A stretch of 64,000 bases of DNA from Deltaproteobacteria bacterium (GTDB taxonomy: Bacteria; Desulfobacterota_D; UBA1144; Nemesobacterales; UBA2774): contig JAVKFU010000015.1 of NCBI GenBank assembly GCA_040223695.1, positions 696,692-760,691 of the forward strand, read 5' to 3'. Position numbers and translations under genes: made by a program. The notes beneath the pieces are model-generated. The model searched no databases, had not been told where the DNA came from, and worked only from the letters and a program-made list of their open reading frames with translations. Positions 94 to 49,227 of the stretch are shown here, piece by piece (position 1 is the stretch's first letter; each line of letters starts with the position of its first letter).

Positions 94-573
94 TCATTCA
101 GGCTTCAGCGTTGCAACCGCGAAGTTAACTCCAAATCGTTTACACCAGATCACGACTGATTTATATTTTGACAGTTCCACATCAGGGCCCAAACCATAAT
201 TCTGATTTCCCACATTCCCTTTTATCGAGCCTAGTTCATATATATCGGACTCCTTAACTTCTTTACTGTCTTTAGGATCCTCAGCAGAAACAAGATAGAC
301 ATGAACATCAGGGCCGTTTGAAACAGCGAAGTCTGTAAAACGAAGTACTCTGTGACCGTCTCCCATATCATAAATAGTTGCGAGACCCTCTCCCTCATGA
401 GCTACGCCGTGAAATTCTCCCTGCGATATAATTTCGGGAGCACCCTTTTCCTCGCTACCGGTATTAGGGAAGTCTTCGTTGATTTTTGAGCTTATAAAAA
501 GCTTCTCAGGACGGAAAAGATACCAGGCTATAATCAAAACAATCAAAACAATTAATATAATTATCGTCTTCAT
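94..573 (-). CDS. DM13-domain membrane-anchored protein
   Basis: Small membrane-anchored protein with a DM13 domain, a family proposed to take part in redox or electron-transfer chemistry through a conserved cysteine; the substrate is not known. Residues 2-20 are one hydrophobic segment (anchor or uncleaved signal), 21-48 a linker, and about 50-157 the DM13 domain, with the conserved cysteine at C144 in VVIWCKRFGVNFA. At 159 residues it is a normal single-domain member. The ATG at 573 has a good GGAGG ribosome site. It stands alone: the next gene upstream lies on the other strand. Family assignment is firm, function is open. Confidence 0.85.
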   Translation of the reverse strand: MKTIIILIVLIVLIIAWYLFRPEKLFISSKINEDFPNTGSEEKGAPEIISQGEFHGVAHEGEGLATIYDMGDGHRVLRFTDFAVSNGPDVHVYLVSAEDPKDSKEVKESDIYELGSIKGNVGNQNYGLGPDVELSKYKSVVIWCKRFGVNFAVATLKPE

Positions 574-866
574 TCTAAATCGCCTCCGTAAGAGTTGATT
601 AAGTCAATTGCAATATTATCACCTCTTAATCTCACTGCCAACACCCGAAAAAAAATATTAAATAACCAGAACCATTATAATCAAACAAAGCATATATACG
701 GGCTTTTCAGATCATTTGTATTCGTCCCGCTAATTTTTACATTACAAGAAGAATAACCCGGTGATTTCGCTCTGAAAATTGGTTAGTACTCCCCTCGCAT
801 TCTGGATATACTTTCTTTTTAAAGACACGTGGCTGATTCTATGCTAATCTACATTTACGTGGAACC

Positions 867-1058
867 ATGGGCGATAATAAGGAAAACACTGTAAAGAATG
901 TCGAAGGAACGCACTGTCCGGAGCACTGCGTTATCGGGCTGGAGGAGTGCGCCGAGTGCGGAGCCTGTGATTTTTGTTCTGACGGAGTCGTGATAAAGGA
1001 GGAGGAATTACCCCTTCATTGGCAGCGTTTCATCGAAAAGAGCAAGATGCCCCCCTGA
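867..1058 (+). CDS. small cysteine-rich protein, unknown
   Basis: Unrecognised 63-residue protein. Six cysteines fall in a compact array (C17, C21, C28, C31, C34, C37), that is C-x3-C-x6-C-x2-C-x2-C-x2-C, which suggests binding of zinc or an iron-sulfur cluster; no named family was recognised. The rest is charged and soluble, with no signal or membrane segment. The ATG at 867 has only a weak ribosome site (GTGGA). The regular cysteine spacing is the main reason to accept it as a gene. It is the only plus-strand gene in the first 54 kb. Confidence 0.55.
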   Translation: MGDNKENTVKNVEGTHCPEHCVIGLEECAECGACDFCSDGVVIKEEELPLHWQRFIEKSKMPP

Positions 1059-1241
1059 ACGGACTGAAGCGAGACCACCTGTAGATCATATTTTTTATAA
1101 AAGTACTAAACTGAAGCCCCCTACCGTTGCTTCAATATCTCGAAGTTATGCTAAGAGGTTTGGAAAATTCGATCTTTTGTCGCTTTATGACCTCATCGAT
1201 CTAATCCTTTGGACCAGACTTATTGACAAAACTTAAATTAC

Positions 1242-1565
1242 CTAGCTTCCCGTCTTTAGGTCTTTCAGTATTTGCCTCTCAATACTCGCCCTAGCCTCCA
1301 GGTCCTGAACAGGAGTAACCTCCCATTCCAATACTCCCCAGGCCGGAAGTGCCCGTAGTATACGGTCAAGGTCGTCGTTCGACTCCGCTTCAGCGATAAA
1401 TACGAACGAACGTTCACCTACCGGAACTCCCCCCACTATTGTTCCTTCATCCTCAAGTTCCTTTAGCTCATCGAAAGTAGGAATAACAACGTTTTCGAGA
1501 ACATCCATCGCTTCCTCAGGTGAATAAAAACCCGGGCCTTCAGTTCCCATCACAAGATATTTCAT
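1242..1565 (-). CDS. muconolactone-isomerase-like small protein
   Basis: 107-residue protein resembling the muconolactone delta-isomerase / YCII-like ferredoxin-fold group of small dimeric proteins. The C-terminal part LPAWGVLEWEVTPV matches the strand that closes the fold in muconolactone isomerases, and the N-terminal MKYLVMGTEG forms the first strand. No ring-cleavage pathway genes lie nearby, so isomerase activity is doubtful and it may be a stress- or ligand-binding relative. The start is secure: an AGGAGGGG ribosome site precedes the ATG at 1565. It is monocistronic. Confidence 0.7.
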   Translation of the reverse strand: MKYLVMGTEGPGFYSPEEAMDVLENVVIPTFDELKELEDEGTIVGGVPVGERSFVFIAEAESNDDLDRILRALPAWGVLEWEVTPVQDLEARASIERQILKDLKTGS

Positions 1566-1788
1566 TTATATCCCCTCCTGATATGGTCGACCTAATATTC
1601 AGAATATTAAATATTATTAAGTACGAATCCCTTCCTGTCCATTAATACTTTCATGTAAATACAACATTGCAATTTGCTATTGTCTATAATCGGGTCCGGA
1701 ATCTGAGGAAAGTTTTTGAGACGGGTCTAACCGCAAGCTTTTTGAAAATAGCGATATTTAGGTAATGAGCAAAATAATCGGCCCGTGC

Positions 1789-1828
1789 AAAAAAAAGTGC
1801 TGCTTGAACCTGAAGGTCCAAGCAGCAC
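1789..1828 (-). terminator. rho-independent terminator
   Basis: On the minus strand a 14-base arm GTGCTGCTTGGACC pairs with GGTTCAAGCAGCAC (one G-T pair) around a four-base loop, and is followed at once by eight T residues. This is a textbook intrinsic terminator reading toward lower coordinates. No protein gene ends nearby on that strand (the closest possible one stops at 2289), which is why a non-coding transcript is proposed. Confidence 0.85.
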
Positions 1829-2101
1829 AACTACGCCGCATATCGGGTTGCCCTTACCCATATCAAATATCAAGCGGCAAATTTTTATAAAAATATCGAA
1901 CTAATCTTATCTACAATAATATCACAAATAATCCCAAATAACACCACCCTAATTCTAATCTACGAAAAGAGACAAGTACAAAATATGCATTGCTAATTAT
2001 GTAAATTATTAAGTGTAGCAGAGCAGTTGCAATAAATTTCCTACATCCTATCCCGGAATCCAAGATGGCGGTAGGTGGAGAGAACGGACCCGGGATAGAA
2101 A
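1789..2101 (-). ncRNA. candidate structured small RNA of about 310 nt
   Basis: A possible non-coding RNA on the minus strand in a 720-base gene-free gap. It would start near 2101 just after a perfect TATAAT box (2108-2113), open with a hairpin (arms near 2041-2056 and 2090-2106), run through an AT-rich middle, and end with a second stem near 1835-1878 (GCCGC pairing with GCGGC) followed by a strong intrinsic terminator. No open reading frame of useful length was found inside, and it does not match tmRNA, 6S, SRP RNA or RNase P RNA by eye. Seen: the promoter box and hairpins. Inferred: that they belong to one transcript. Confidence 0.4.
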
Positions 2102-2106
2102 TGCAG
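2041..2106. repeat. long inverted repeat around a 33-base loop
   Basis: The arms CTACATCCTATCCCGG (2041-2056) and CCGGGATAGAAATGCAG (2090-2106) pair almost completely, with a one-base bulge and a G-T pair. The loop is rich in G and A. It could be the 5' hairpin of the candidate RNA or an independent palindromic element. Confidence 0.6.
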
Positions 2107-2107
2107 G

Positions 2108-2137
2108 ATTATACTATATTTACAACATAAACTTTAA
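2108..2137 (-). promoter_or_regulatory. possible promoter of the candidate small RNA
   Basis: A perfect TATAAT box reads on the minus strand at 2113-2108. The only -35 candidate, TTAAAG at 2137-2132 with an 18-base spacer, is weak. Transcription would begin near 2101, at the foot of the first hairpin. Confidence 0.4.
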
Positions 2138-2288
2138 GTCTTCTTCCCGAAAATCTCCCCTCAAAATAATAGATATCTTACGCCGAGGCCCCTGAAAAAC
2201 TGAAATTAATTAATGGTTTCTGCATGCCGGAGGTCTCTCTATACGAGTTTACAAATCTAGCTGCTTTCAATTTCAGGTTTAGGGTGAA

Positions 2289-2486
2289 TCATGATATCCG
2301 CAAACTTCCTCTTACTCTTTTTAACAAAAGATACGGGATTCGAGATTCAGTTACAAGCAAAATTTCAGGAGTGTTAATGATAATTTTAGAGAACATATCC
2401 ACACCGGGGAGGGACATTAAACGCGTTTCATGCAGCTCCGGATAGACATCCTCTTTCTTTATGAACAACAACCGCTCGTCCACCAT
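2289..2486 (-). CDS. possible 65-aa protein, unknown
   Basis: A 65-residue open frame 42 bases downstream of the 2529-2987 gene and on the same strand. Its composition (alternating hydrophobic and charged residues, basic C-terminus) is protein-like, but no family was recognised and the ribosome site is poor. It could be a small gene co-transcribed with its neighbour, a fragment of a decayed gene, or chance. Low confidence. Confidence 0.3.
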   Translation of the reverse strand: MVDERLLFIKKEDVYPELHETRLMSLPGVDMFSKIIINTPEILLVTESRIPYLLLKRVRGSLRIS

Positions 2487-2528
2487 ATATCTGTCAGGCC
2501 CTGCTTAATAATAAGGATACATGGAGGC

Positions 2529-2987
2529 CTAAACCGGCCTCAGCTTTTCACGAATGTTCTCCAAAGATATCCTATAATGCTCACCGTACTGCTTATAGCT
2601 ATTGTCTTTGAACAGTTCGTGAGCCCTCAGCCTGATCTGCTCCTTAATGTCTTCAGAAAAAATATCCAGGTTCTGCTCTGACAGGAAGATTGCAGAATAG
2701 CAAGATATATTGTCCTTTCCCCTGATGAATATGTCGGCGAGCATACCGGCCGCCCCCTCTGTATGCGTTTCACCCAGCACGTAAACACACGCTTCCTGCC
2801 AGATATGAGTTCTGCTGCCAAAAATCTTTTTTAACGAGTGCCAGTCGAGGTCCGAAAATCTCATGAGTATATCCTCCCCTTCACGGTATTCCCGCTCGTA
2901 CCAGTTTTCGCCGGGATGCATATTGCCGTTGGCGGTGTGTTCCTTTATGTGTCTGTCGAAAATTTCCATGTTATCTAATTTTTTCAT
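2529..2987 (-). CDS. hypothetical protein, 152 aa
   Basis: Unrecognised soluble protein of 152 residues, rich in charged and aromatic residues, without signal peptide or membrane segment. Predicted to be mostly helical; the middle part (about 50-110) has the short paired-helix look of HEAT-like repeat proteins, but this is only an impression. AAGGGA precedes the ATG at 2987 at an acceptable distance. It stands between two long non-coding stretches, so the context says nothing about its role. Confidence 0.6.
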   Translation of the reverse strand: MKKLDNMEIFDRHIKEHTANGNMHPGENWYEREYREGEDILMRFSDLDWHSLKKIFGSRTHIWQEACVYVLGETHTEGAAGMLADIFIRGKDNISCYSAIFLSEQNLDIFSEDIKEQIRLRAHELFKDNSYKQYGEHYRISLENIREKLRPV

Positions 2988-3583
2988 TGATCGAATTCCC
3001 TTGATATTCCCATATATTGTTAATCCGTAGAAGAGATGGACAACATTATTTTACACAAAATAATTTCCCTGCCTAACATGGAGAATCTATTTTCTCCTAT
3101 AACTAACCCCCGACATATATTCATATTAAATAATCCCGGACATCGTGAGTCCGGTCGAAGGGTATGATGATTTTAATCCCGCTCTCCGGGGCCGAGCCGA
3201 TATAGAAGGTTAAGGTAATGACATTTTCCGAAGACCGATAATTCAATTAACTTACCAGACAATAAAAAACAATTAGAGTATGGGAAGCTTGCCGCATCGG
3301 AGGAGTGACAATCAAACGAGCAAGAGAATAAGGCTCCTTAAGACAAGGAAGATGATTATTTCTGGCAATATATGTAATCGGACTCTACGAACTAGAGGTT
3401 AAGTTTACTCTCATTCTAAAATGAACTTTTCAATACGGAAGGAGACCGGAGCAGACGATCATGTGCTCCTGTTGAACCGCTTGTTGACACAAATTATCCT
3501 GGCTCTCATTTCTCTTATTAGGCGCACTCTGCATCTGGTATACCCGTGCAGAAATTATATATACATCCCGTGGTGGTCGGCTC
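2988..3583. other. intergenic region, one degenerate palindromic repeat
   Basis: About 600 bases with no convincing gene on either strand. The open frame starting at 3421 on the plus strand runs into the redoxin gene and looks like its shadow. The only recognisable element is a degenerate copy of the dispersed palindromic repeat at 3141-3166. Confidence 0.5.
3141..3166. repeat. degenerate copy of dispersed palindromic repeat
   Basis: CATCGTGAGTCCGGTCGAAG followed by GGTATG resembles the better copies at 5219, 5450 and 60284 (pattern CATnCTGAGCCCGGTCGAAG) but the terminal palindrome is decayed. Confidence 0.45.
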
Positions 3584-5905: not shown

Positions 5906-8134
5906 TCAGGGCTGGGGAACTTTCACTTCGAGATTGCCCGGAGCCTCCGGAGGTAATTTGGCTGAATCCACTAACGTAGTCGCGGAGGCCTGTGCGGAAT
6001 GCTCCGATTCATTACCGGCGGCGTCATACGCCGTAACGGTATAAGAGTATTTAGTGGATTGCTTAAGACCGGTATCTGAATAGTATGTATCCGTGGTTGT
6101 AGTAGTCGCGGAACCATTCCGGTATATCCGGTAACCACTCACTCCGACATTATCCGTAGAAGATCCCCACGACAGATTGATTTGAGAACTGGATATTACG
6201 ATCGCCGTGAGTACGGTAGGCGTCGCGGGAGGGGAATTATCGGCAAATTTGGCCGTGGTAAATGTGAAATCGTACGAGAGGTAGGTTTTACCTCTCTGAT
6301 CTTTCGATATCAGCCTGAAGTGATACGTGGTTTCGGGACTCAGACCGGTTAGCAATACCTTGTGATCAAAAGCAAGGGAGGTGTCCAGTTCGCTAGTGCT
6401 TCCGTACGATTCTGTCGGTCCATATTCAACCTGGCTGTCTGCAGGCTCGCTTGTGCTCCACGATATTTCAACGGAATCATGGGTAATGGCATCTACACTG
6501 ACTGAGAAAATTGAGATAGATGTTTGATTCATACACGTATCCAGCAGGTTATTCTGTTTATCCGTCATATTACTTGTGTCGGGATCACCGAAAACCGAGT
6601 TCGTATCCTGACCTGTAATCGATTTCCATCCGTTAAAGTCGTGTGTGCCGTTCGCTTTAAATACATTCGCGTTTTCGGCGTTATACCATATATTGTTATC
6701 GGAATTAATAGTATCAATGAAAATGTCCGCAGGGGATTCTTTAACGTCTATTAGCGTTTGACCCGAATTACTGCCTAAAATAACGTTGTTACTCATTGTC
6801 CAGTTTTTTGATCTCAAGTGCATTTCTTCCCCGGTCTCCCAATTACTAACGGCTCTACTCGATGTAACGCCTCTTAAAGCTATTTGAGTATCACCGTTTC
6901 CATATAGAACATTTCCTTCCAATTCGACGTTCTCGGCATTTGCTGCTAATACTCCTGGACCGTTTTTATTGTTGCAGATGGCGGTATTCCTTATTGTAAA
7001 CGGACCCTGATTTGCTTCGATAAATATTCCGTCTTTGAGATTATCCGCCAGTATTGAATCTTCTATGACTACATTCTCGCAATCAAAATCACACCAGAAC
7101 CCCCGCGTCATATTACCAAGAGAAATATGCTTTCTATATACCGCGTCGTGAATTCTAAGGTGTTTCATGCCGGCTACAGCAAAACCGGTAAAATTACCTC
7201 TAACCCCTCTCCAGTTGTTAAAGGAGGTTGTATTCTCTTCAAACAACAGGTTCTTGATCCTCCATGCCTCAATTCCTCTCCCGCCGTTATGATTAGCAAT
7301 ATTTCTACGAGCGGTAATATCCGTAGACCCGTTGAATCTGAGCCCTCCCCAGTTGTTCCAGATAAACGAACAGCCCTCTATTAAAATATTAGAAGAATTA
7401 TTTATTTCCACCGCATTCCCATCAACTCCGGTATTATCGTGCTGAAAGATAAATCCTCTTATAGTCACGTTTTCTCTGTTGTTAACAATAAGTAGACCCG
7501 AGCGGACCGCAACTTCTACGGTGGAGTCATTTATATTCACATCCGCAGGCGGCCATACATAAACCTTGTTTTCATCCTCCGACACATAGAACGATTTCTC
7601 TTCAAGTTCTTCAATCGACAGCACCTGCTTGAGCAAATTACCGTCTATAAAAATCATCTCCCTCCTTCTTACTATTTTCTCCAGAGTTTCACTGGGCCAG
7701 GGATTCGGCACCGCGCCCCAGTTGTAGGTCCAGTTATGGGTATAGATATCGGTTCCTGCTTTTTTTGTCCATCCCGTCCAGACATCAGAACCCGAAACAA
7801 TCACACTTCCCGCTGAATCCGCCTCGAGAACTATCTCGGCAGGGGTATTCGAATGATCGGAGATAAAAGGAAGAATTACGGATTCCCTGTAAGTGCCCGG
7901 ATGCACTAGTACTGTCACCGGGGTATTACTCTTATTAATTTGATCGGCCAGATTCGCGGCTCCCGCTATTGTCTTGATGGGAAGATTGCTGGTCCCCGGG
8001 TTATCATCCGAAGCGGACGGGTTCTCGTTATCCACGTGTATTACGGTTTGGGACAATGCTTCACCGCAAACCGCCGCGGAAATAAAAAGTACAATTAAAA
8101 TAGTCCTGAACGTAAATGTAAAATTATCAAACAT
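5906..8134 (-). CDS. secreted right-handed beta-helix protein with two Fn3 domains
   Basis: Exported protein of about 742 residues. The ATG at 8134 is chosen over the longer frame from 8212 because it has an AGGAGG site and is followed directly by a signal peptide (about 1-29, hydrophobic core RTILIVLFISAAV). Then comes a right-handed parallel beta-helix of about 400 residues with many short PbH1-type turns rich in N, G and I (for example NVTIRGFIFQHDN and ILIEGCSFIWNNWGG), and two fibronectin type III domains (about 540-625 and 635-720). Such beta-helices are typical of polysaccharide lyases and C5-epimerases, so it may bind or modify the exported glycan; this is inference. It starts 13 bases after the 8148-10307 gene ends, so both are under the same riboswitch. 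Confidence 0.8.
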   Translation of the reverse strand: MFDNFTFTFRTILIVLFISAAVCGEALSQTVIHVDNENPSASDDNPGTSNLPIKTIAGAANLADQINKSNTPVTVLVHPGTYRESVILPFISDHSNTPAEIVLEADSAGSVIVSGSDVWTGWTKKAGTDIYTHNWTYNWGAVPNPWPSETLEKIVRRREMIFIDGNLLKQVLSIEELEEKSFYVSEDENKVYVWPPADVNINDSTVEVAVRSGLLIVNNRENVTIRGFIFQHDNTGVDGNAVEINNSSNILIEGCSFIWNNWGGLRFNGSTDITARRNIANHNGGRGIEAWRIKNLLFEENTTSFNNWRGVRGNFTGFAVAGMKHLRIHDAVYRKHISLGNMTRGFWCDFDCENVVIEDSILADNLKDGIFIEANQGPFTIRNTAICNNKNGPGVLAANAENVELEGNVLYGNGDTQIALRGVTSSRAVSNWETGEEMHLRSKNWTMSNNVILGSNSGQTLIDVKESPADIFIDTINSDNNIWYNAENANVFKANGTHDFNGWKSITGQDTNSVFGDPDTSNMTDKQNNLLDTCMNQTSISIFSVSVDAITHDSVEISWSTSEPADSQVEYGPTESYGSTSELDTSLAFDHKVLLTGLSPETTYHFRLISKDQRGKTYLSYDFTFTTAKFADNSPPATPTVLTAIVISSSQINLSWGSSTDNVGVSGYRIYRNGSATTTTTDTYYSDTGLKQSTKYSYTVTAYDAAGNESEHSAQASATTLVDSAKLPPEAPGNLEVKVPQP

Positions 8135-8147
8135 CACAATCCTCCTG

Positions 8148-10307
8148 TTATAACCTCGGCCTGACCTCCAAATTATCGAAAAGCTTTGTCCCTTTTCCCG
8201 TACTCCACACACCTACCGCACCGGAAGTAATTCTTGATCTGCTGTCATCATAAGCGTCTATCTGAAATTCTTCGGGCTCACGCTCCCCCTCCTTCCAGAC
8301 CTTGCCCCTTATATTAGTTTCCGTACCCGTATCCTCGACCTCTATCCGAAATTCATACCAATTGTTAACCTCAAGCAAGACTCCTGAATCTGTATCCCCC
8401 TTAATCCTGGTCCCGCGGGAGGCCAGGTGCAATTGGGGCCTTCGACCATAACTACCCAGACGGTAATAAGCATCACTTCCCTCGGGATACCTGCTAAAGA
8501 AAGTAACGCCCGCCCCGGCTTTTTTGTTTGTGATAAACATTCTCCCTGTATAGATATAGTTAGTCCATTCTGTAGCGTCTTCTCCTGTGTAGTGGGAATG
8601 AATATTTCTCGATCCTGAACTCGTGCCAAACGCGACCGTGTCTCTGACTTTTTTCGTCTTGAACAGGGACGCATCTTCGTTAAAACTATTCCTGCTGCCG
8701 GTATCCATCCAGTTTTCGGGATCGCCCTCTCCCTCGTACTCCTCAAAATCTTCCGAAAACAAAAGAGAGTGCGATTTTGCATCCACAACAATTTCAATAA
8801 TTTCAGTATCGCTCAGTTGGCCGTCGTCCACAACCAGGAGAACTTCATACATGCCTGGCTCGGAAAATCCGTGACTCACCCCAGATCCTGTCGCTGTCGA
8901 ACCGTCACCGAAATCCCAGGTGTAGTTAAGCGGATGACCGTCAGGGTCGAAACTCCCTCCTGCGTCGAAAAATAAGGTTCTCCCGGGTAGAGTAGAGCTA
9001 CCGGGGTCAACCCTGATTACGGCCACAGGAACGGAATTCACGGTAAGATCAACCGCAATCTGAGATGTAATTGAATCTGACAATCCGGCGTCACTCACGG
9101 TCAATGTAACATCGTATGTTCCCGGATCGCTGTAGGTGTGATTAACTGTTTCCCCCGTTTCGGTAAAGCCGTCGCCAAAATCCCAGGCATAGCTCAAAGG
9201 CTCGCCATCCGGGTCGAAACTCCCTCCCGCGTCGAAAAACACACGCTCCCCGACTACAGCGGATTCAGGCGGGTCCATATCAAAAGCCGCGACAGGGGGA
9301 TTATTTAAAGGCCGTGCCTGCACACCCGTATCAACAGATGAAACCGCAAGGTCGTCGAAAAGTTTTGTCCCTCTCCCCATAGTCCAAACCCCTATAGTGC
9401 CTGAGTTTATCCTTGTAACACTGTCGTCATAGGCCTCTATCTGAAACCTGTCAGGCTCTTTCTCTCCTTCCCGCCAGACCTTAGCCCTTATACTTGTCCG
9501 TGTCACCGTATCTTCTACCTCTATCCGGAACCTGTACCATCTGTTGGCAAAAGGTTTAACCCCTGAATCCGTATCCCCTTTTACAGAGGTCCCGTGCGCC
9601 GATATATGAAATTCAGGCCTCTGGGCATATCTTCTCAGGCGGTAGTAAATATCCCGTTTCTCGGGGTACCTGCTAAAGAATGTAACCCCTATTCCTCCGC
9701 CTCTATTAGTTATGTACATCCTTCCGGTGTATGTGTAATTCGTCCAGTTAAGGGCATCTTCGCCCGCGTAGTGGGAATGAATATTTGTATCTCTGGACTC
9801 CGTTCCGAAAGCAATTTCATTTCCAAGCGCTTTCGTTGTAAAAAGCCCGGGATCTTCTACAAAACTGTTATTCCTCCTGGTATCCTTCCAACTCGCGGGG
9901 TCTTTACCTGTCCCGTATCCCTCGAAATCATCAAAGATTAAAATTTCTTCCTGCCCCACGAATATGGTATTGGAATCGCCTCCCGTCCGGGGATGGATAG
10001 CGCAAACAGCCGCGCCCGATGAGCCGCCGTATGCATTAAAAGCCGTCACTCTGTAACAGTATTCGATATTGCGGGATATAGACGAATCATTGTAAGAAGT
10101 TGAATTCGGACCCAATCGCGCAATCCTCTGAAAGGGGCCGTTCTCGCTCAAGCTGCGCTCGATATCGAATCCGTCCTCGTTGTTTGAGTTGTCCTTCCAG
10201 GAAAGGATAAGTTCCGCAGCGTTTAAAAAATACGGACTGATAAAATTAAAGGAAAAAGCAATCAGGATTATTATTACAGCATTACATACCCTGCCTGATA
10301 AGAACAT
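8148..10307 (-). CDS. secreted multidomain protein: Fn3 - LamG-like - PKD - PKD - LamG-like
   Basis: Exported 719-residue adhesion or glycan-binding type protein. Order: signal peptide (1-30), Fn3-like domain (about 31-110, SWKDNSNNEDGFDIERS), LamG-like jelly-roll (about 120-330), two PKD domains (about 340-425 and 428-510, each with FDAGGSFDPDG and WDFGDG motifs) and a second jelly-roll (about 515-719). The two jelly-rolls are clear internal duplicates: both contain FFSRYPE, KGDTDSGV, YRFRIEVED or YEFRIEVED, and GRGTKLFDD or GKGTKLFDN. The ATG at 10307 follows a strong AGGAGG six bases upstream, which lies inside a sequestering hairpin of a c-di-GMP riboswitch. First gene of a two-gene operon with the beta-helix protein. 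No catalytic motif recognised. Confidence 0.85.
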   Translation of the reverse strand: MFLSGRVCNAVIIILIAFSFNFISPYFLNAAELILSWKDNSNNEDGFDIERSLSENGPFQRIARLGPNSTSYNDSSISRNIEYCYRVTAFNAYGGSSGAAVCAIHPRTGGDSNTIFVGQEEILIFDDFEGYGTGKDPASWKDTRRNNSFVEDPGLFTTKALGNEIAFGTESRDTNIHSHYAGEDALNWTNYTYTGRMYITNRGGGIGVTFFSRYPEKRDIYYRLRRYAQRPEFHISAHGTSVKGDTDSGVKPFANRWYRFRIEVEDTVTRTSIRAKVWREGEKEPDRFQIEAYDDSVTRINSGTIGVWTMGRGTKLFDDLAVSSVDTGVQARPLNNPPVAAFDMDPPESAVVGERVFFDAGGSFDPDGEPLSYAWDFGDGFTETGETVNHTYSDPGTYDVTLTVSDAGLSDSITSQIAVDLTVNSVPVAVIRVDPGSSTLPGRTLFFDAGGSFDPDGHPLNYTWDFGDGSTATGSGVSHGFSEPGMYEVLLVVDDGQLSDTEIIEIVVDAKSHSLLFSEDFEEYEGEGDPENWMDTGSRNSFNEDASLFKTKKVRDTVAFGTSSGSRNIHSHYTGEDATEWTNYIYTGRMFITNKKAGAGVTFFSRYPEGSDAYYRLGSYGRRPQLHLASRGTRIKGDTDSGVLLEVNNWYEFRIEVEDTGTETNIRGKVWKEGEREPEEFQIDAYDDSRSRITSGAVGVWSTGKGTKLFDNLEVRPRL

Positions 10308-10313
10308 TCAGTT

Positions 10314-10348
10314 CCTCCTCAAGTCTTTAAATTGCAGACGTGAAGAGG
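10314..10348 (-). promoter_or_regulatory. ribosome-site sequestering hairpin (riboswitch expression platform)
   Basis: Just downstream of the aptamer, CCTCTTCA pairs with TGAGGAGG (8 pairs, one G-U), extended by GTCT with AGAC; the second strand is the ribosome-binding site of the gene starting at 10307. There is no T-run, so control is more likely at translation than by termination. Whether ligand opens or closes the hairpin cannot be read from the sequence. Confidence 0.7.
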
Positions 10349-10358
10349 TTCTGTCTAT

Positions 10359-10475
10359 GCTGGCAACTCTGCTGCCGTATCCTTCATGGCACTCGAGTTA
10401 CAAAGTGAGTACGAGGACTTAGGCCAGTAGCTTTGCGTCCCGTTATTTCTAACGGTTTGCCCTTTTCAGCCTGCA
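10359..10475 (-). promoter_or_regulatory. class I cyclic-di-GMP riboswitch aptamer (GEMM-I)
   Basis: The minus strand reads AGGGCAAACC, then a stem capped by a GAAA tetraloop (GTTA-GAAA-TAAC), then GGGACGCAAAGC, then CTGGCCTAAGTCC with a pairing partner GGATACGG, and GGCAGCAGAGTTGCCAGC. These are the invariant parts of the GEMM-I aptamer in the right order: the ligand pocket, the GAAA tetraloop and its CCTAAG receptor, and the 3' strand that closes the junction. The stem between is extended by GTACTC pairing with GAGTGC. The base equivalent to G20 of the Vc2 aptamer is G, as in c-di-GMP binders; cGAMP-binding variants carry A there. Confidence 0.9.
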
Positions 10476-10511
10476 AACTAATTTATGTTATTTCAATAAT
10501 ACCCCATATTA

Positions 10512-10539
10512 ATTATAGTCCTACTTTTTTTTTCGTAAA
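10512..10539 (-). promoter_or_regulatory. likely promoter of the riboswitch operon
   Basis: On the minus strand TTTACG (10539-10534) and a perfect TATAAT (10517-10512) are 16 bases apart. Transcription would start near 10505, about 30 bases before the aptamer, which fits. It indicates that the two secreted-protein genes have their own promoter after fcl. Confidence 0.5.
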
Positions 10540-10656: not shown

Positions 10657-11601
10657 TTATCCAAGCCTGTTTTCTTTATACCACTCGATTGTTTTGGCCA
10701 GTCCTTCGCTGAAGGATGTACGGGATTCAAAACCGAACTCCTCTTTCGCTTTTGATACATCCAGTTTTCTTTTCGGCTGACCGTCGGGACGTGTGGCATC
10801 CCACTCAACCTCTCCCTCATAACCCACCATCTCTTTTATCATATATACGAGATCCCTAATTCTGATTTCCTCTCCGGAACCCAGATTCACGGGTTCACCT
10901 TTGTCATACCCCGCAGTAGCCATGACAATTCCACGCGCCGCGTCTTTTACGTAGAGGAATTCCCTTGACGGGCTGCCCGTCCCCCAGGCAAGAACCTTCT
11001 CCAGCCCCCTTTGCCTTGCGTCGAAGAACTTCAAAATAAGCGCCGGAATTACATGAGCGTCCTCCGGATCAAAATGATCGCCCGGGCCGTAGAGATTTAC
11101 AGGTACCAGATATATGGCGTTAAAACCGTATTGCTTCCTGTAAGACTGTGCCTGAACCAGGAGGGCTTTTTTAGCCACTCCGTAAGGTGCGTTTGTCTCC
11201 TCGGGGTACCCGTCCCATAGATTCTCCTCTTTAAAAGGAACCGGCGTGAATTTCGGATAAGCGCAGACGGTACCGACAGCCACGAACTTATCCACCCCCT
11301 CTTGTCTGGAAGCTTCCATCAACTGTATGCCCATAATGGCATTATCATAAAAAAGCTCGCCGGGGAACTTCAAGTTAAAGCCTATGCCCCCTACCTTAGC
11401 CGCGAGATGTATCACCACGTCCGTATCTTTTACGGCGGCCAGGCAGTTCTCCCACTTTCTCAAATCAAGGTCTCCGCTGCGGGGTATCACTATATTCTCC
11501 CGCGGAACTCCTCTAGAAACAAGTTCATCCACGACGCAGGAACCGAGAAACCCACTGCCCCCTGTTAAAAGTATGCGTTTTGAGCTTAATTCTTTCATCA
11601 T
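10657..11601 (-). CDS. fcl: GDP-L-fucose synthase
   Basis: Bifunctional 3,5-epimerase/4-reductase that turns GDP-4-keto-6-deoxy-D-mannose into GDP-L-fucose with NADPH, in the cytoplasm. Extended SDR fold of 314 residues, the usual length: N-terminal dinucleotide motif GGSGFLGS (about 14-21), catalytic YxxxK in APYGVAKK, and the substrate-loop pattern NLYGPGDHFDPEDAHVIPAL typical of Fcl/WcaG. The frame begins ATGATG (11601) after AAAGG. The gene lies 61 bases downstream of gmd, which makes its substrate. It is the last biosynthetic gene before the riboswitch-controlled secreted proteins. Confidence 0.93.
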   Translation of the reverse strand: MMKELSSKRILLTGGSGFLGSCVVDELVSRGVPRENIVIPRSGDLDLRKWENCLAAVKDTDVVIHLAAKVGGIGFNLKFPGELFYDNAIMGIQLMEASRQEGVDKFVAVGTVCAYPKFTPVPFKEENLWDGYPEETNAPYGVAKKALLVQAQSYRKQYGFNAIYLVPVNLYGPGDHFDPEDAHVIPALILKFFDARQRGLEKVLAWGTGSPSREFLYVKDAARGIVMATAGYDKGEPVNLGSGEEIRIRDLVYMIKEMVGYEGEVEWDATRPDGQPKRKLDVSKAKEEFGFESRTSFSEGLAKTIEWYKENRLG

Positions 11602-11662
11602 AATTAACCTTTATCACAATAATAAATAAATGAAGCTGAGTTCTCCCTATTCAATAAGATTC

Positions 11663-12706
11663 TCAATCCCTTTTCCACCATCTATTGGGGAATTTTTCTT
11701 TTAGTATTCTGTCGCCCTCTCCTACGGGTTCGAGACCCATTTCCCTCATATCAGCGTCAATCATTATTTTAACGAGGTCGCTGAATCCGATTTTTACGTC
11801 CCACCCCAGAACATCTCTCGCCTTGCCGGGATCCGATTTCAGGCTTTCTACCTCGGTCGGCCTGAAATAGTTCGGATCGGTTTTAACATATTTCTCCCAG
11901 TCAAGCCCGACGTAGGAGAAAGCCTCCTCTACGAACTCCTGTACCGAATGAGTTTCGCCAGTCCCGATTACAAAATCCTGAGGAGTATCCTGCTGAAGCA
12001 TCTTCCACATGATTTCTACATACTCGGGGGCGTACCCCCAGTCACGCGTAGGCTCCAGATTTCCGAGAAAGAGGTACTGCTGCCGCTCCCTCAGTATGTT
12101 GGCTATGGCCCTTGTTATTTTTCTTGTTACGAATGTTTCTCCCCTTCTGGGAGACTCGTGGTTAAAGAGTATTCCGGTTACGGCGAATATATCATAACCG
12201 TCCCTGTAGTTCACTGCCGTCCAGTGAGCCATGAGCTTCCCGCACGCGTAAGGGCTTCTGGGCTGGAACACCGTAGATTCGTTCTGCGGCGGGGGTGAGG
12301 CACCGAACATCTCACTGCTCGACGCCTGGTAAAAACGGCATTTGATGCCGCTCCTTCTTATGGATTCGAGTATTCTTACGGTACCGAGCCCGGTAATGTT
12401 ATTACTGTACTCCGGCATATCGAAACTCACTCTGACATGGCTTTGCGCCGCCAGGTGATATATCTCGTCAGGCTCAATCTTGTATATCATGTTCGTCATC
12501 TGGCTCGAATCGCTTAAATCTCCATAGTGAAGGTACAGTCGAGCTTCAGGTTCGTGCGGATCGACATAAATGTGGTCAATCCTTTCGGTATTAAAACTGC
12601 TTGATCTTCTTATCAGACCATGAGTTTCATATCCTTTGGACATCAGGAATTCAGCGAGGTACGAACCGTCCTGTCCCGTAATTCCAGTTATAAGTGCCTT
12701 TTTCAT
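11663..12706 (-). CDS. gmd: GDP-mannose 4,6-dehydratase
   Basis: Converts GDP-D-mannose to GDP-4-keto-6-deoxy-D-mannose, the first step toward GDP-L-fucose (or GDP-rhamnose). With the ATG at 12706 the protein is 347 residues, right for the family; GGAG precedes it, while the longer frame from 12784 adds 26 unrelated residues. Motifs: [15 protein letters not shown] at the N-terminus (dinucleotide binding), [16 protein letters not shown] with the catalytic T/S region, and [10 protein letters not shown] (YxxxK). The downstream neighbour fcl completes the pathway. Confidence 0.95.
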
Positions 12707-12806
12707 TCGCGACTCCGTTAGATCATGAATTTGAGGATTGATCCCAAATATTAAAACTAAAGGGGATCTATATGTAAATTGCAACTTCCAATAAGGGATT
12801 CAAATA

Positions 12807-21456: not shown

Positions 21457-23844
21457 TTAGCGGGCGCATCTGAAACCGGTGTTTCCAAACCTTTCATTGG
21501 GAATATCCTTGGCCCGATGATATACCCTTACACGTGAAGGCGCATTTTTCCATGAACCGCCGCGGACACAGAGGGAATCCTCGCGGCTGTAGTCATTGCT
21601 CATAGCTTCCTCGCCCGTCGAAATAATACGGGAGATGAAATTTTTAATACGACCCTTAATACTGCGTTTTATCTCAAAATCACATATATCTCCCGTCCAT
21701 TCCCAAACATTTCCCGCCAAGTCCAAAACACCGTAAGGGGAGGCCCCTTGTGGAAAAGAGCCCACGGGCGAGGTTGTGTAAAAACCGTCATTGTAACCTT
21801 TAACGGTATCCAGTTTGGGGTTATTACGTTTCGCCTCTTCATCCCCTAGATTTGCTAGAGCTTTCTTTCCGTTAAAATCATTATTTCCCCACGGATAAAT
21901 TCTTCCGTCGGTTCCTCTTGCCGCCTTTTCCCACTCCGCCTCAGTCGGCAATCGCTTTCCGGCCCAATGACAATATGCTTCAGCCTGAGACAAATCCACG
22001 CAATTGATCGGATGACTCTCTTTTCCTTTCTTTCCCCAGTTACATTGAAATGACAGCTCCGGTCTTTCCGAACCTCTAAACTCGGGCAGATTGAGATTGT
22101 CGCTTTTGCAGCGACCGGCTTTGACGCACTCGCCGTACTGCGCTACTGTTACCTCCGTCTTGTCAATCGCGTAAGAATCTACATGGACAAGCCTAAGAGG
22201 ATTCTCGTAATCCTGACAGTAAGAATATTCGTCCTTGTTACAACCCATCCGGAACTCACCCGCGGGAATCAAGACCATTTCCGTTCCCGTATCGTCTGTT
22301 ATTACCGGAGGCGATAGTACGGTATCCATAACTTTATGAACATCGGTATTATCGATGTACGAGCCGCGCACAGGGTCTGACTTTGTCGCAAAAGTTGCGA
22401 ACAGTTCGGAATTCAATCCTTTGGCATACAGTGGTACGAGGTTATTTGTGTGTGCCGAATTCCGGCACGTATTCCAGACCCAGAAAACGGTCTCGCCCGA
22501 GTCTATAGTATTGTTCTCATTTCCGTCTTCCCAGCTGGCGCGGCAGTCGCTGTTATCAACCTCTTTCTCAAGAGATATGGTTCTGTCGCTCACCTCACCA
22601 AGCAGCTGATCAGGAAACACGCCGGGCCCTGCGGTCAGGTAGCCTGATTCGTGGTCTCCCGTAACGATTACAAGAGTGTTTTCCCAGTCGCTTCCGTTAG
22701 AAGGGTTTTCAACCCAGTCAACCACGGCCTGAACCGCTTCATCGAAATCAATCTGTTCCCCTATCATAAGGTTCATGTCGTTATCGTGCCCCGCGTAATC
22801 GACAGCCCCGCCCTCTATAAGTAATACGAAACCGTGGGGGTTGCGGGCGAGAACTGTTAGAGCAGACGTGGTCATTTCAGCAAGCGTCGGATTGTCAAGA
22901 TTACGTCCTGATCCATCGGCTAAACGGTAGCTGTGTCCGAACAAACCCACGAGTTTGGTTATATTTTCGTTTTCAGCCGTCCGGATTAAACGCGCTCCGT
23001 TATCTTTTCCGTCGACGCTCTCAATCAGTGTGTGTTTATCCGGCTCAGAGCTTTCATTCCGGAGCCTGCCGCGAATGTAATCGTTCAGGTAGCTCTCACC
23101 CGAGTGGCCAAGACCGTCAGCGCCTATTAAAACGTCTATAGGGTCTGACGGGCCGCGGTCTCCGGTATATAAATCCTTGAATACCTTCCGCGACCTCGGC
23201 ACCCTTTTAAAAACCTTTTGACCAAGATACCTGGCCCTCTCATTCCAGTCCCATTCGTCGTACGTTGCATGTGGATCCCCGAACAAACCCTCCTCGGCAA
23301 TCGCGTATGAATTAAATCTGTAATCATTATGCGCGTACCAGGCCCCGGGAGTTGCGTGTGATATTTGCACAGTGCTTACCGCTCCCACGGCCATATTGAA
23401 CATTCTGGCTTTTTCCGCGATTGAATACAGGCGTTCACCGTCGAGCGATACGCCTAACATCGACGACTTAGTTTTTGTGCCGGTATACATTGCGGTTGCC
23501 GACGCTGCGCTGTCGGTCGGCCCTCTTTTGACATAATCGAAATCCGACCATGCGAGCTCGGGGTCGTAGCCGCCGCCCGCGGGATAGGTTGACATCCAGT
23601 ATGGGTCCCAGAATTGATATGCCGGAGCGCGTCCGGTGTATTTACCAGTCGCCTCTATGTGTTTTATCCCCCAGCCGTCGCTGATCATTAAAATTACGTA
23701 CTTGGCCCCCGAAGGCTGGAGAAATTCTTCTCCTTCGGAGAGGCTTCCAGTTAATAATAAGCAAATCACCGCCGCGGCAAAGATATAACGGCGGCAAGTC
23801 AGCCCTTCCGGACGTTTGAATTTTACAGGTTTATTAAGTTTCAT
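21457..23844 (-). CDS. alkaline phosphatase fused to a sulfatase-modifying-factor (FGE-like) domain
   Basis: 795-residue exported fusion. After a signal segment (about 18-36) comes an alkaline phosphatase domain (45-510) with all main residues in place: D56, nucleophile S112 in PTDSAASATA, HAT at 163-165, E344, D349 and H353 in EGGAVDYAGH, D397-H398 in GDHES, H465. Residues about 516-795 are an FGE/SUMF1-type domain (MVLIPAGEFRMG, RLPTEAEWEKAARG, NVWEWTGD, CVRGGSW, GFRCAR). The two catalytic cysteines that FGE carries between RGGSW and GFRCA are absent (KNAPSRVRVYHRAK), so it should not make formylglycine; ligand binding or another role is more likely. An unusual combination. Confidence 0.88.
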   Translation of the reverse strand: MKLNKPVKFKRPEGLTCRRYIFAAAVICLLLTGSLSEGEEFLQPSGAKYVILMISDGWGIKHIEATGKYTGRAPAYQFWDPYWMSTYPAGGGYDPELAWSDFDYVKRGPTDSAASATAMYTGTKTKSSMLGVSLDGERLYSIAEKARMFNMAVGAVSTVQISHATPGAWYAHNDYRFNSYAIAEEGLFGDPHATYDEWDWNERARYLGQKVFKRVPRSRKVFKDLYTGDRGPSDPIDVLIGADGLGHSGESYLNDYIRGRLRNESSEPDKHTLIESVDGKDNGARLIRTAENENITKLVGLFGHSYRLADGSGRNLDNPTLAEMTTSALTVLARNPHGFVLLIEGGAVDYAGHDNDMNLMIGEQIDFDEAVQAVVDWVENPSNGSDWENTLVIVTGDHESGYLTAGPGVFPDQLLGEVSDRTISLEKEVDNSDCRASWEDGNENNTIDSGETVFWVWNTCRNSAHTNNLVPLYAKGLNSELFATFATKSDPVRGSYIDNTDVHKVMDTVLSPPVITDDTGTEMVLIPAGEFRMGCNKDEYSYCQDYENPLRLVHVDSYAIDKTEVTVAQYGECVKAGRCKSDNLNLPEFRGSERPELSFQCNWGKKGKESHPINCVDLSQAEAYCHWAGKRLPTEAEWEKAARGTDGRIYPWGNNDFNGKKALANLGDEEAKRNNPKLDTVKGYNDGFYTTSPVGSFPQGASPYGVLDLAGNVWEWTGDICDFEIKRSIKGRIKNFISRIISTGEEAMSNDYSREDSLCVRGGSWKNAPSRVRVYHRAKDIPNERFGNTGFRCAR

Positions 23845-45136: not shown

Positions 45137-47449
45137 TTATGACCTTCTCTGATTTAAGGTTATTTTCTTTGACCTTTTCTTTTCATTTTCGTCCGTCATG
45201 TAATAGTAGTCATAGGAGCCCGCGTACGTGCTTCCAATATCAATTCTGTTTATGACGACACCGATAATTCTCGCTCCGACTTTCCTGAGCTCTTCCAGGC
45301 TGTTCCTGAAACCATCTCTGTGGGCAATCCCCACGCTCGCGACGAGTAGCACACTATCCACCTGTCTCGAAAGAAGACGGGTATCCGCCAGCTCCATGAC
45401 CGGGATACCGTCCAGTATTACGTTATCGTAGTCTTTGACCAAACGCTCAATTAATTTTTTCATCGGCTTGGAATCGATAAGATCTGCAGGATTAGGCATT
45501 ATGGGGCCTGCCGGTATTACATCCAGGCCATCGATTTCCGTATGGTAAACAATATTCTCGATATTTTCAGCACCGGTCAGATATGTGCTGAGTCCATTCC
45601 CGTTCTTAATGTTCTCCATGAAAATTTTATGAAGACTGGGCCTCCTCAAATCCGCGTCGACCAGGATTACCTTTAATCCCGACTGAACCATGGTAAGCGC
45701 CAGGTTGCAGGATATTGTGGTCTTCCCCTCGAGCGGCTGAGTGCTTGTTACGAGAAGCGACTTGGGAGCGCTCTCATTTCGCGCTGTATATAAAACGGAA
45801 GTTTTAAGCACCCTGAAGGCTTCAGATATTTTGGAGAGCGGGTTCGTGTAAACAATCTTGTCAAGAACTCCTACCTCGCTGCCGCTTGCTGCGGGTATCT
45901 TGCCCATAAACGGAATCGGGAATCTCTTTCTGATGTCTTCCTCGTCACGGATAGTTCTGTCGAAGTGCTCAAACCCGAATGCCAGCATTACGCCCGTCAT
46001 TAAACCCATGATAGCCGCGATTAAAACATTAAACAGGATTTTCGGCTTATATGGATGGAGCGGGGGGAAAGCATAATCGATGACCTGCACGTTTGAAGCC
46101 CTTATCCCCGATGTTACCTCGGTTTCCTTGAGCCTCTGAAGAAGGTTCTGGTAAATAGTTTTATTCGAATTCACCTCTCCGTCCAGAACCTGGTACTGGG
46201 TTGCAAGCTCATTTAATTCCCCGGCCCGGGCTTTCTGCACATCCGCCCTCTGCCTGAGTATGTCTTCTTTTTTCTTGGCAGCCTGATAGCCTTTTTTAAT
46301 ACTCTGAGCGATTTCATTTAACTGGCTCTCTATTTCGTATTGAATCCTTACGACCTGCGCCCCGATCTCTTTCATCTCAGGGTAATTCGCGCCGTACCTC
46401 GCATCGAGATTATCGTACTGGGATTTAAGTCTCACGTATTCAGTTTTGAGCTGACGAATCGAAGGATCATTTATAACCTGCGGCAACAGCTCATAGTTCC
46501 CGGCTTTCGCCTCTTCGTAGATTGCTTCCTGCGCAAGTCTATCTGTTTCCGCTTTCGCCAGAGCGTCGTTTAAATCGCCGAGCTGTTTATAGGTGAGGTT
46601 GAGATCCTTGTCCAGAGAGACTATGTCCCATTTCTTGGCGAATTCGCTGAGTTCGTCCTGGGTTTTTTCAAGCTTCTCCTTTACCGTTTTCAGCTGATTG
46701 GTCAGCGAAGCAACCGCTGACTTCGTCACCCCGAGTTTCTTTTCCAATACCCATTCGATGTATTGATCCGCCAGAGTATTTACGGCCTCAGCGGAAAGCT
46801 TGGGATCGGCGCTCTCAAAACTAACGTCAACGAGCCTCGATTCCCTGTCGGGGGTAACCTTAACCCTGCCTAAAAAAGCGTTAACCAGCTTCTCCTGCTC
46901 GGTAAGCTCCTTTTGCTGTTCAATGGGGTATTCGTCTTTCCCGCCGGGCAGAATTTTCTTTATAGGAGCTGTTATTGAACTTTTTACGATTGCCAGAAGT
47001 CCGGGCTTTTTGTTAACGTCGAATTCCGGGTGAGATTTCAGATCTAATTTGTTGATTACCTCTCTTGCCAGAGACCTGCTTCTTAATAACTTGTACTGGG
47101 TCTCGTAGAACTCGTCCTGTGCCTGTGTTTTTAGTTCCATTACTTCCTGAAAACCCGTTATCTTTGGGTCTTCCGGCGCGATTTCGACTGTTGCCGCGGC
47201 TTTATATATTTTCTGCATCATGAGTGAGGCAATCCCCACTATGAAGACCGATATGAAGAGACACGCCAATACGACCTTTTTTCTCCGTTTGATAACGTTT
47301 ATGTAGTCATTCAGGCTAGACGACTCTTCCAGGTACAAATCATAGTCCGATTCCTGTAGAGCGGGATGTATATCTTTTCTCCGCTCATCAACATCAACGA
47401 CTTCGACTTTTGTAATCTGTCTCCCAGGTCTATTTAATTTGTCATCCAT
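45137..47449 (-). CDS. wzc: polysaccharide co-polymerase / tyrosine autokinase (Wzc-like)
   Basis: Inner-membrane protein of 770 residues controlling chain length and export. Order: Wzz domain with membrane segment about 55-75, a long periplasmic coiled-coil part (about 180-420), GNVR region, second membrane segment (about 475-495), and a cytoplasmic BY-kinase domain with Walker A STQPLEGKTT (569-578), Walker A' VILVDADLRRP and Walker B VILDGIP. The C-terminal tail carries a tyrosine cluster (Y742, Y746, Y748-750), the sites of autophosphorylation. It has both parts in one chain, as in proteobacteria. 26 bases downstream of wza. Confidence 0.93.
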   Translation of the reverse strand: MDDKLNRPGRQITKVEVVDVDERRKDIHPALQESDYDLYLEESSSLNDYINVIKRRKKVVLACLFISVFIVGIASLMMQKIYKAAATVEIAPEDPKITGFQEVMELKTQAQDEFYETQYKLLRSRSLAREVINKLDLKSHPEFDVNKKPGLLAIVKSSITAPIKKILPGGKDEYPIEQQKELTEQEKLVNAFLGRVKVTPDRESRLVDVSFESADPKLSAEAVNTLADQYIEWVLEKKLGVTKSAVASLTNQLKTVKEKLEKTQDELSEFAKKWDIVSLDKDLNLTYKQLGDLNDALAKAETDRLAQEAIYEEAKAGNYELLPQVINDPSIRQLKTEYVRLKSQYDNLDARYGANYPEMKEIGAQVVRIQYEIESQLNEIAQSIKKGYQAAKKKEDILRQRADVQKARAGELNELATQYQVLDGEVNSNKTIYQNLLQRLKETEVTSGIRASNVQVIDYAFPPLHPYKPKILFNVLIAAIMGLMTGVMLAFGFEHFDRTIRDEEDIRKRFPIPFMGKIPAASGSEVGVLDKIVYTNPLSKISEAFRVLKTSVLYTARNESAPKSLLVTSTQPLEGKTTISCNLALTMVQSGLKVILVDADLRRPSLHKIFMENIKNGNGLSTYLTGAENIENIVYHTEIDGLDVIPAGPIMPNPADLIDSKPMKKLIERLVKDYDNVILDGIPVMELADTRLLSRQVDSVLLVASVGIAHRDGFRNSLEELRKVGARIIGVVINRIDIGSTYAGSYDYYYMTDENEKKRSKKITLNQRRS

Positions 47450-47475
47450 AATTTATAATCTCCCTCGCCCTCTGA

Positions 47476-48486
47476 TCATCTGTCAGGCGGATTGTAACCT
47501 ACTCCACCTATTCCGAACACGTTAAAATTGAGCCCGTAGAAAAAGCTCTTTATACCGCTGGCTCCTACAATTACGGCGTCTTTTTCGTTTAACAGCGGGT
47601 CCGATTCCTCGCCGTTCCGGATTCTCTCCAGATCGACATCCACAACCTCTTTTCTGCCGTTTCCAAGGTAGCGAATGAGCTTTACGTCCCCTTTATCCGC
47701 AACACTCATTACTCCGCCCGCCATTACTACAGCCTCGCTAAGCGTCGTCTTCCCTTCATTGATAGGATACGCGCCGGGGTTGACCACAGCGCCCTCAACA
47801 AAGACGTTTGCCGCTTCAGGGACATACACCAGGTCCCCGGGTTTAATTTCTAGATTAGCTTCGGGATTCTGACTGGAAAGAAGCTCGTCCAGATCCACAA
47901 GATAAGAATTCTTACTTCCGTCTTTTTCATTCCTCGTCACATAAACCAGTGTTCCAGCCTTATCGTTCAAGCCCTGCGCGGATGCCAGAGCATCAAGCAG
48001 CGTCCTACTGCCGATCAGCTCGTAGACCCCAGGACTGTTTACATACCCCAGCACGGAAACAACCTTGCTCTTGTGCTCTGTCACGAATATACCCACATGA
48101 GGATCATCTATATACTCGCCGTCTCTGAGCATGTTTTCTATCTTTACCTCCGCATCCCTTGCGGTGAGTCCTTCTACATAGACACTGTTCAGAAGTGGTA
48201 TGGTGATTTCTCCCCTGGAGCTCACACGAGTGGTGGTGGTCAATCTGTCAGACTCAAATACCCTTATCTCGAGAAGGTCTGCGGGTCCTATCAGATATCC
48301 TGCGGGCGTGGCCGTGTTCGCAGGAATAGATTGTGAAATAAGCCGGGAATTAATATTTTCGACTTCTTGAGGAGCCTGGTAGTCCTGCCGGGACGTCTGA
48401 GGCGTGTTTACTGTCCGGCCGCCCCCCCCGCATCCGGCAATCGCGGCCGCCAGGAAAAGAATAAAGAATGATATTTTATTATTCAT
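47476..48486 (-). CDS. wza: outer-membrane polysaccharide export lipoprotein (Wza-like)
   Basis: Outer-membrane secretin-like pore for polysaccharide export, 336 residues. Lipoprotein signal with lipobox AIAGC (C19), then poly_export domain (GYLIGPADLLEIRVFESD) and two SLBB domains (VLGYVNSPGVYEL, VFVEGAVVNPGAYPI). The C-terminus (about 305-336) is an amphipathic stretch, FFYGLNFNVFGIGGVG, as expected for the membrane-crossing helix. AGGAGG precedes the ATG at 48486. It is followed by wzc, its known partner. Confidence 0.93.
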   Translation of the reverse strand: MNNKISFFILFLAAAIAGCGGGGRTVNTPQTSRQDYQAPQEVENINSRLISQSIPANTATPAGYLIGPADLLEIRVFESDRLTTTTRVSSRGEITIPLLNSVYVEGLTARDAEVKIENMLRDGEYIDDPHVGIFVTEHKSKVVSVLGYVNSPGVYELIGSRTLLDALASAQGLNDKAGTLVYVTRNEKDGSKNSYLVDLDELLSSQNPEANLEIKPGDLVYVPEAANVFVEGAVVNPGAYPINEGKTTLSEAVVMAGGVMSVADKGDVKLIRYLGNGRKEVVDVDLERIRNGEESDPLLNEKDAVIVGASGIKSFFYGLNFNVFGIGGVGYNPPDR

Positions 48487-48603
48487 AATAACCTCCTGAA
48501 TAAATTAAAAGGAAAGTCATTACACATATACTTATTGTTATCCGATTGAGTAATCCTTATCCCTATGATTGACACAGCTTCGCCACCTCGCTTACATAAA
48601 ACA

Positions 48604-48643
48604 AGCTATAAAATCACACTTGTTCCCACCCGGAGTTATAGCT
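48604..48643 (-). promoter_or_regulatory. hairpin between antiterminator gene and wza
   Basis: Two bases beyond the stop of the NusG-like gene, AGCTATAA and TTATAGCT are perfect 8-base arms around a 24-base G-rich loop, followed on the minus strand by TGTTTTATG. It may be a weak terminator or the site where the antiterminator acts on RNA polymerase; neither is proven. Confidence 0.4.
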
Positions 48644-48645
48644 TT

Positions 48646-49227
48646 TCATACAAGCTCTATATCAGCCGGATCCACTTTTACGGCAACAGAACGCTTAATG
48701 ATATCTATCGATACAATGAGCCTGTTCTGTCCCTTCCTTTCGACGATCTTTCCGCTTACACCACTGAGCGGCCCGTTAACTACCACAACCTCTTTCCCTT
48801 TTACCAAATATTTATACGGATCGTATTCGACATTCGTGTCCACGAGACACCTTATCGAATCTATCTGATGAGCGGACACTCTCTCATAGCTTCCGTTCGA
48901 GCTAAGGATTCTTACGACACCTCTAGTATTCAAAATATTCAGTACGCTCTGCGCGTCCTTCTCGAATATCCGTACGAATATATATCCGGGGAAAAGCGGA
49001 AGCTGTAGCTTTTTTCTTCTGTCTTTCCATTGAGTCATAACTTCCCTCAAAGGCAAAAATGTCTCGATCTTCTTGCTCGACAGCAGGGAGTCGACGGTCT
49101 TTTCGTGTCTCACGATTGTGTAAACCGCATACCACGATCTAGCGGCCGACGCGCCCGAAACTTCGCCCGGATATACCATATCCTCATTTTGAGACGCTAG
49201 ATTTCTTGTATCCGCCATTGTGCTCAT
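48646..49227 (-). CDS. NusG-paralogue transcription antiterminator (RfaH/UpxY/LoaP type)
   Basis: Specialised NusG of 193 residues. Residues 1-30 are a variable leader, then the NGN domain (RSWYAVYTIVRHEKTV, RRKKLQLPLFPGYIFVR) and a C-terminal KOW domain (VVVVNGPLSGVSGKIVERKG). Such proteins bind RNA polymerase and let it read through long glycan operons; the gene's place at the head of a 43-kb same-strand locus, right before wza, is the classic UpxY/RfaH arrangement. GAGGG precedes the ATG at 49227. It lies 61 bases after the response regulator gene and may be co-transcribed with it. Confidence 0.9.
   Translation of the reverse strand: MSTMADTRNLASQNEDMVYPGEVSGASAARSWYAVYTIVRHEKTVDSLLSSKKIETFLPLREVMTQWKDRRKKLQLPLFPGYIFVRIFEKDAQSVLNILNTRGVVRILSSNGSYERVSAHQIDSIRCLVDTNVEYDPYKYLVKGKEVVVVNGPLSGVSGKIVERKGQNRLIVSIDIIKRSVAVKVDPADIELV

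Follow-up and report, generated by a model that had tools for sequence, protein, structure and literature searches.

A two-gene operon at the end of a polysaccharide locus is preceded by a leader that looks like a receptor for the biofilm signal c-di-GMP, which raises the questions of whether the leader is a riboswitch, what its two proteins do, and in which direction the signal acts on them. An earlier note on this DNA had read the arrangement as a c-di-GMP-I riboswitch in front of an operon for exported matrix proteins with LamG, PKD and beta-helix domains. We followed up that reading in the window (the whole stretch of 64,000 nucleotides that was analysed) and in related genomes. The aptamer class, the ligand pocket, the hairpin over the Shine-Dalgarno (SD) sequence, the export of both proteins, the PKD and beta-helix domains and the polysaccharide locus were retained from it; the LamG domain and the matrix role were not.

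The aptamer and its predicted ligand

A covariance search with the Rfam model of the c-di-GMP-I (GEMM-I) class, RF01051, proposed earlier as a check, gave a match on the minus strand at positions 10471-10359 with 76.6 bits (E 2.7e-13), about twice the gathering score of 35. The alignment spans model positions 1-87 of 87, i.e. the full length, and it is the sole Rfam hit at gathering level in the 64 kb window. The GAAA tetraloop, the CCUAAG receptor strand, G20/G21 and the GUUGCC closing strand all lie at the positions previously assigned to the landmarks of the class, and the 3' receptor strand reads UACGG, not UAUGG, as it does in some relatives. The leader is a genuine riboswitch of the ordinary, already known c-di-GMP-I class. 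Riboswitches of this class ahead of surface genes are well known; our literature search for a GEMM aptamer combined with PKD proteins found no report.

The pocket of the aptamer is AAAAGGGCAAACC, with a G at the position equivalent to Vc2 position 20, and the same G20-type pocket occurs in all six aptamers of the genome (GGG in the pilM leader). An A at this position marks the cGAMP aptamers of the GEMM-Ib type, and the A20G change turns a cGAMP aptamer into a c-di-GMP binder (PMC6456294). The pocket favours c-di-GMP over cGAMP as the predicted ligand, in line with the earlier proposal, although the ligand is favoured rather than proven because position 20 is a selectivity factor, not a hard filter (PMC9262584). 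That the aptamer senses cGAMP in the manner of GEMM-Ib is very improbable, given the G, not A, in the window aptamer and the other five and the effect of A20G. What speaks for it is one GGDEF domain of the genome (L227; C18:347810-348277, minus strand), which reads GHLIGS and has a serine at the signature position of hybrid, cGAMP-making enzymes; therefore cGAMP may also be made in the host.

Two exported proteins beside a polysaccharide locus

Gene 1 (8148..10307, minus strand; 719 aa) starts at 10307 behind the SD sequence GAGGAGG, and comprises a signal-like N-terminus, two PKD domains and two unclassified beta domains. The PKD domains, already named in the earlier note, form two stretches within residues 335-508 (Pfam PKD_4, 8.9e-44); in named genomes, a scan gave nothing but look-alikes with PKD domains, most of them from archaea. 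They are flanked by two copies of a domain of about 215 residues (118-333 and 507-719) that are 59% identical to each other. Neither copy belongs to a Pfam family even at E 1, and the domain has no match among PDB sequences. The AlphaFold model of the protein is poor (pLDDT 49), and its best fold matches are weak ones to legume lectins and other concanavalin-like folds. With low confidence, the beta domains may be concanavalin-like, and to call them "LamG-like" is no more than a guess. The named LamG domain claimed previously was rejected, since there is no profile match for either domain at E 1 and the fold search was built on a poor model.

Gene 2 (5906..8134, minus strand; 742 aa) begins at ATG 8134, 13 nt past the stop codon of gene 1, and has its own SD sequence, AGGAGG, at 8146-8141. 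The GTG at 8212 given as its start in the list of open reading frames was discarded as an over-extension, because ATG 8134 has an AGGAGG of its own. The product carries a signal-like segment, a right-handed beta-helix and two C-terminal Fn3-type domains, with Pfam matches to Beta_helix and fn3. The signal segments of both genes, judged by eye, agree with the view that the two proteins are exported. A profile of five sequences matched the GH120 beta-xylosidase XylC (3vst) at E 1.3e-24, and 3vst was also the top Foldseek match (4e-14), with alginate epimerases ranking lower; the beta-helix proposed for this protein is borne out by the Pfam and fold matches alike. D349 and E373 of gene 2, both invariant in five homologs, align on D382 and E405 of XylC, which are the nucleophile and acid/base of GH120 (PMC8954004). 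Gene 2 is therefore best read, on the strength of sequence and fold comparison, as a predicted GH120-like glycosidase, not a matrix scaffold. Because the GH120 resemblance includes both aligned catalytic residues, the protein more likely works as an enzyme on the polysaccharide of the adjoining locus than as the matrix protein envisaged before.

The neighbourhood agrees with the earlier statement that the operon adjoins a polysaccharide locus. Upstream on the same strand lie an fcl-like epimerase gene and gmd (10657..12784, minus strand; Pfam), GDP-fucose genes that close the locus, followed by genes for methyltransferases, glycosyltransferases, a Wzy-type ligase, Wzc and Wza, and the operon sits at the 3' end of the locus. 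In one relative of another genus (G002, genus g3), a beta-helix gene 63% identical to gene 2 directly follows gmd inside the polysaccharide locus, without a riboswitch and without a PKD gene, so that the link between glycosidase and locus predates, or extends beyond, the link between glycosidase and riboswitch. In a second relative (G004, genus g5), which holds one ortholog of gene 1, PKD-type and beta-helix genes occur together, on a contig that ends before the leader. Elsewhere in the window, a wza/wzc operon (45137-49227) is headed by a NusG-type gene (antiterminator) and lacks an aptamer; a search for a second, weak aptamer ahead of it found none at E 1. In addition, one gene of the polysaccharide region (21457-23844) unusually joins an alkaline-phosphatase-like domain to an FGE-sulfatase (formylglycine-generating-like) domain.

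c-di-GMP RNAs in the genome and its relatives

The genome from which the window comes (3.03 Mb assembly) contains six c-di-GMP-I aptamers. Two of the others precede genes for type IV pili, namely pilB-pilT-pilC-like genes (L133) and pilM-N-O-like genes (L135), where PilM and the T2SSE ATPase were scanned in relatives and the other Pil names come from reading the sequences. The remaining three precede a PilZ/acyltransferase/GNAT fusion (L131), a CBM96/beta-helix exported protein (L132) and a glucose/sorbosone-dehydrogenase-like protein (L134). The genome also has six GGDEF, one EAL and four PilZ matches, so that makers, breakers and other receptors of c-di-GMP are present. It has six distinct loci with the Pfam domain Beta_helix, two of which fall within its six riboswitch operons.

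Among 60 related genomes the aptamer was found in 20, with up to nine copies per genome, and the clade analysis covers the 79 aptamers above the cut-off. The recurrent first genes behind them encode CBM96/beta-helix or sugar-dehydrogenase-like exported proteins (13), an SLT/SPOR transglycosylase (7), the PilZ fusion (6), PilM (6) and the gene heading a wza/wzc operon (3). The last group comes from three relatives (G007, G012 and G026), in which the orthologs of the window's wza/wzc genes stand behind c-di-GMP-I aptamers. The fusion protein of L131 (positions 331-3081; region C18:132754 of the genome) has 917 aa and combines PilZ, a BioF/Kbl-type PLP acyltransferase and GNAT; it is kept behind an aptamer in six genomes, which places a c-di-GMP receptor domain under the control of a c-di-GMP RNA. 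A recurrent family of exported CBM96 proteins, with or without PKD, together with beta-helix proteins is found behind c-di-GMP-I aptamers at L132, L150, L183, L190 and L206, several of them near polysaccharide genes. A large part of the surface programme of the lineage appears to be under the control of these RNAs, including type IV pili, a PilZ protein, wza/wzc and exported beta-helix proteins.

The expression platform, its predicted direction and known systems

About 40 nt upstream of the aptamer lies a sigma-70-like promoter, TTTACG-16-TATAAT (10512..10539, minus strand), with 10/12 consensus matches. The promoter is plausible and stands where it had been proposed, but it is not significant alone because shuffled sequence yields 1.6 such sites per region. 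No intrinsic terminator was found in the leader, and terminator-based control was rejected on this ground.

Downstream of the aptamer and outside it, a hairpin formed by CCUCUUCA and UGAGGAGG (10314..10348, minus strand) masks the SD sequence of gene 1, with a probability of 1.0 that the SD is paired. Its energy is -19.4 kcal/mol against a mean of -8.6 for shuffled linkers; 1/2000 shuffles was as low, and its stability was equalled by 44/5000 random genomic linkers. The hairpin, which had been suggested to hide the ribosome site, is real. Its anti-SD strand, CCUCUUCACGUCUGCAA (10332..10348, minus strand), can pair either with the SD or with the 5' flank of the aptamer. It is complementary to GUUUGCAGGCUGAAAAGG, made up of the 5' flank and the aptamer start, at -20.1 kcal/mol (3/5000 shuffles), and the resulting anti-sequestor, UAGUUUGCAGGCUGAAAAGG (10461..10480, minus strand), overlaps G residues of the ligand pocket. 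Part of this match comes from the conserved GAAAAGG. When the conserved CUGAAAAGG was held fixed, the energy was reached in 57/5000 shuffles and by 53/20000 genomic 17-mers, so that P is ~0.003-0.01 under the stricter controls. The evidence for the anti-sequestor helix is moderate, because the conserved aptamer start supplies part of the match. Taken together, the two competing pairings make a two-state translational switch possible.

Relatives were searched for the same platform. Over 61 clade leaders, masking of the SD did not exceed that in shuffles, and pairing of the anti-SD strand with the 5' flank gave a mean z of -0.28 over 29 leaders; both SD masking as a clade-wide platform and the exact anti-sequestor of the window as a clade-wide device were rejected. 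Two relatives have strong analogous pairings. In G018:C1 (L183:1336-1521), a second copy of the 3' strand of P1, GGAUUUCAA, sits within the SD hairpin, and the sequence of the 5' flank complements either one (0/400 shuffles each), a clear switch design ahead of a CBM96-PKD protein; the leader of G030:C60 has a similar device.

From the aptamer, the masking hairpin, the competing helix and the protein domains, we infer a riboswitch that would control translation of the two-gene operon, i.e. of a PKD/beta-sandwich protein that is probably glycan-binding and of the GH120-like glycosidase, with c-di-GMP as the OFF signal, a reading that we put slightly above an even chance. The strand at 10348-10332 would be contested by two pairings, one with the SD, which masks the ribosome site, and one with the aptamer start and the 5' flank before it, which frees the site. 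Ligand binding would engage the aptamer start (G20 and the P1 strand), so that c-di-GMP would most likely free the anti-SD strand, the ribosome site would be masked and the operon would be off. When c-di-GMP drops, the enzyme would be made and the cell's own polysaccharide might be trimmed or released. Translational control by the leader is likely, and OFF polarity is favoured by the overlap of the anti-sequestor with pocket and P1 residues and by comparison with Vc2.

Folding models bear on this reading in both directions. In a model of the growing transcript, the pairing of the flank with the anti-SD strand arises while the SD has yet to be transcribed, and the SD hairpin later takes its place. 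In the equilibrium model of the full transcript, the SD is masked whether or not the aptamer is folded, and the cost of opening it is 9.2 kcal/mol in the free state versus 9.6 in the bound state (9.7 versus 11.3 with P1 enforced). The leader has a short P1 of 3-4 pairs (z 0.1); the competing helix is present, P1 is weak, and the model gives no clear difference between the two states. The opening costs hardly differ, so that the predicted direction leans on folding order and analogy. The short P1, a long-range helix that could partly coexist with the aptamer core, the SD masked in both modelled states, the strong SD that gene 2 has of its own and the lack of a clade-wide platform of this kind all count against the OFF reading. 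The masking in both states and the lack of an intrinsic terminator would also suit an aptamer that binds c-di-GMP but whose effect comes chiefly from mRNA stability or Rho-dependent termination, while the SD hairpin serves as a constant brake; we consider this improbable, as it leaves the competing helix unexplained.

Another alternative is an ON switch, the direction assumed in the earlier note, in which c-di-GMP would stabilise the long-range helix as an extension of P1, leaving the ribosome site free. The proteins would then be produced in the biofilm state and serve in the matrix or in the shaping of polysaccharide. A constrained fold in which the long-range helix can coexist with the aptamer core is compatible with it, other c-di-GMP-I switches such as Bc2 ahead of an adhesin are ON switches (PMC4933901), and the wza/wzc export genes of relatives follow such aptamers. 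However, pocket G residues are taken up by the AGG:CCU pairs of the full anti-sequestor, a P1 bulged by ~20 nt on one side does not resemble the known members, and the translational member known in this class works as an OFF switch. We regard the ON switch as possible but unlikely.

If the OFF reading holds, the locus might form a dispersal circuit built on a riboswitch only, in which a fall in c-di-GMP would directly open the ribosome site for an exported GH120-like enzyme, and this enzyme would cut polysaccharide of the cell itself. The switch would be the pairing of the aptamer 5' flank with the SD-masking strand, in a clade with c-di-GMP-I RNAs as a main output. We offer this larger picture tentatively. 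It makes a testable prediction, namely that the biofilm signal needs no more than an RNA to control an enzyme that cuts polysaccharide, and that it does so with a sign opposite to that expected of a matrix operon.

Compared with known systems, the enzyme shares a right-handed beta-helix and the catalytic pair with XylC; however, identity in the fold match is ~14%, and gene 2 is exported, has two Fn3-type domains and is sited in a polysaccharide locus. The GEMM-Ib riboswitches of Geobacter resemble those of the present genome in that several aptamers per genome stand ahead of pilus and polysaccharide genes (PMC6456294), but they have A20 and sense cGAMP, in contrast to the G20 of the window aptamer. 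Bc2 of cap in Bacillus thuringiensis is an aptamer of the same class ahead of an exported surface protein; it acts as a transcriptional terminator/antiterminator switch (PMC4933901), whereas the window leader lacks a terminator. Vc2 of tfoY in Vibrio cholerae shares with the window leader the aptamer class and a ribosome site masked away from the aptamer; P1 as pivot and translational control, which is of the OFF type in Vc2 (PMC9262584, PMC7371385), are predicted for the window leader as well. The two differ in their targets and in that the masking strand of the window leader pairs with the aptamer 5' flank, and the comparison predicts that c-di-GMP would repress, not activate, the operon described here.
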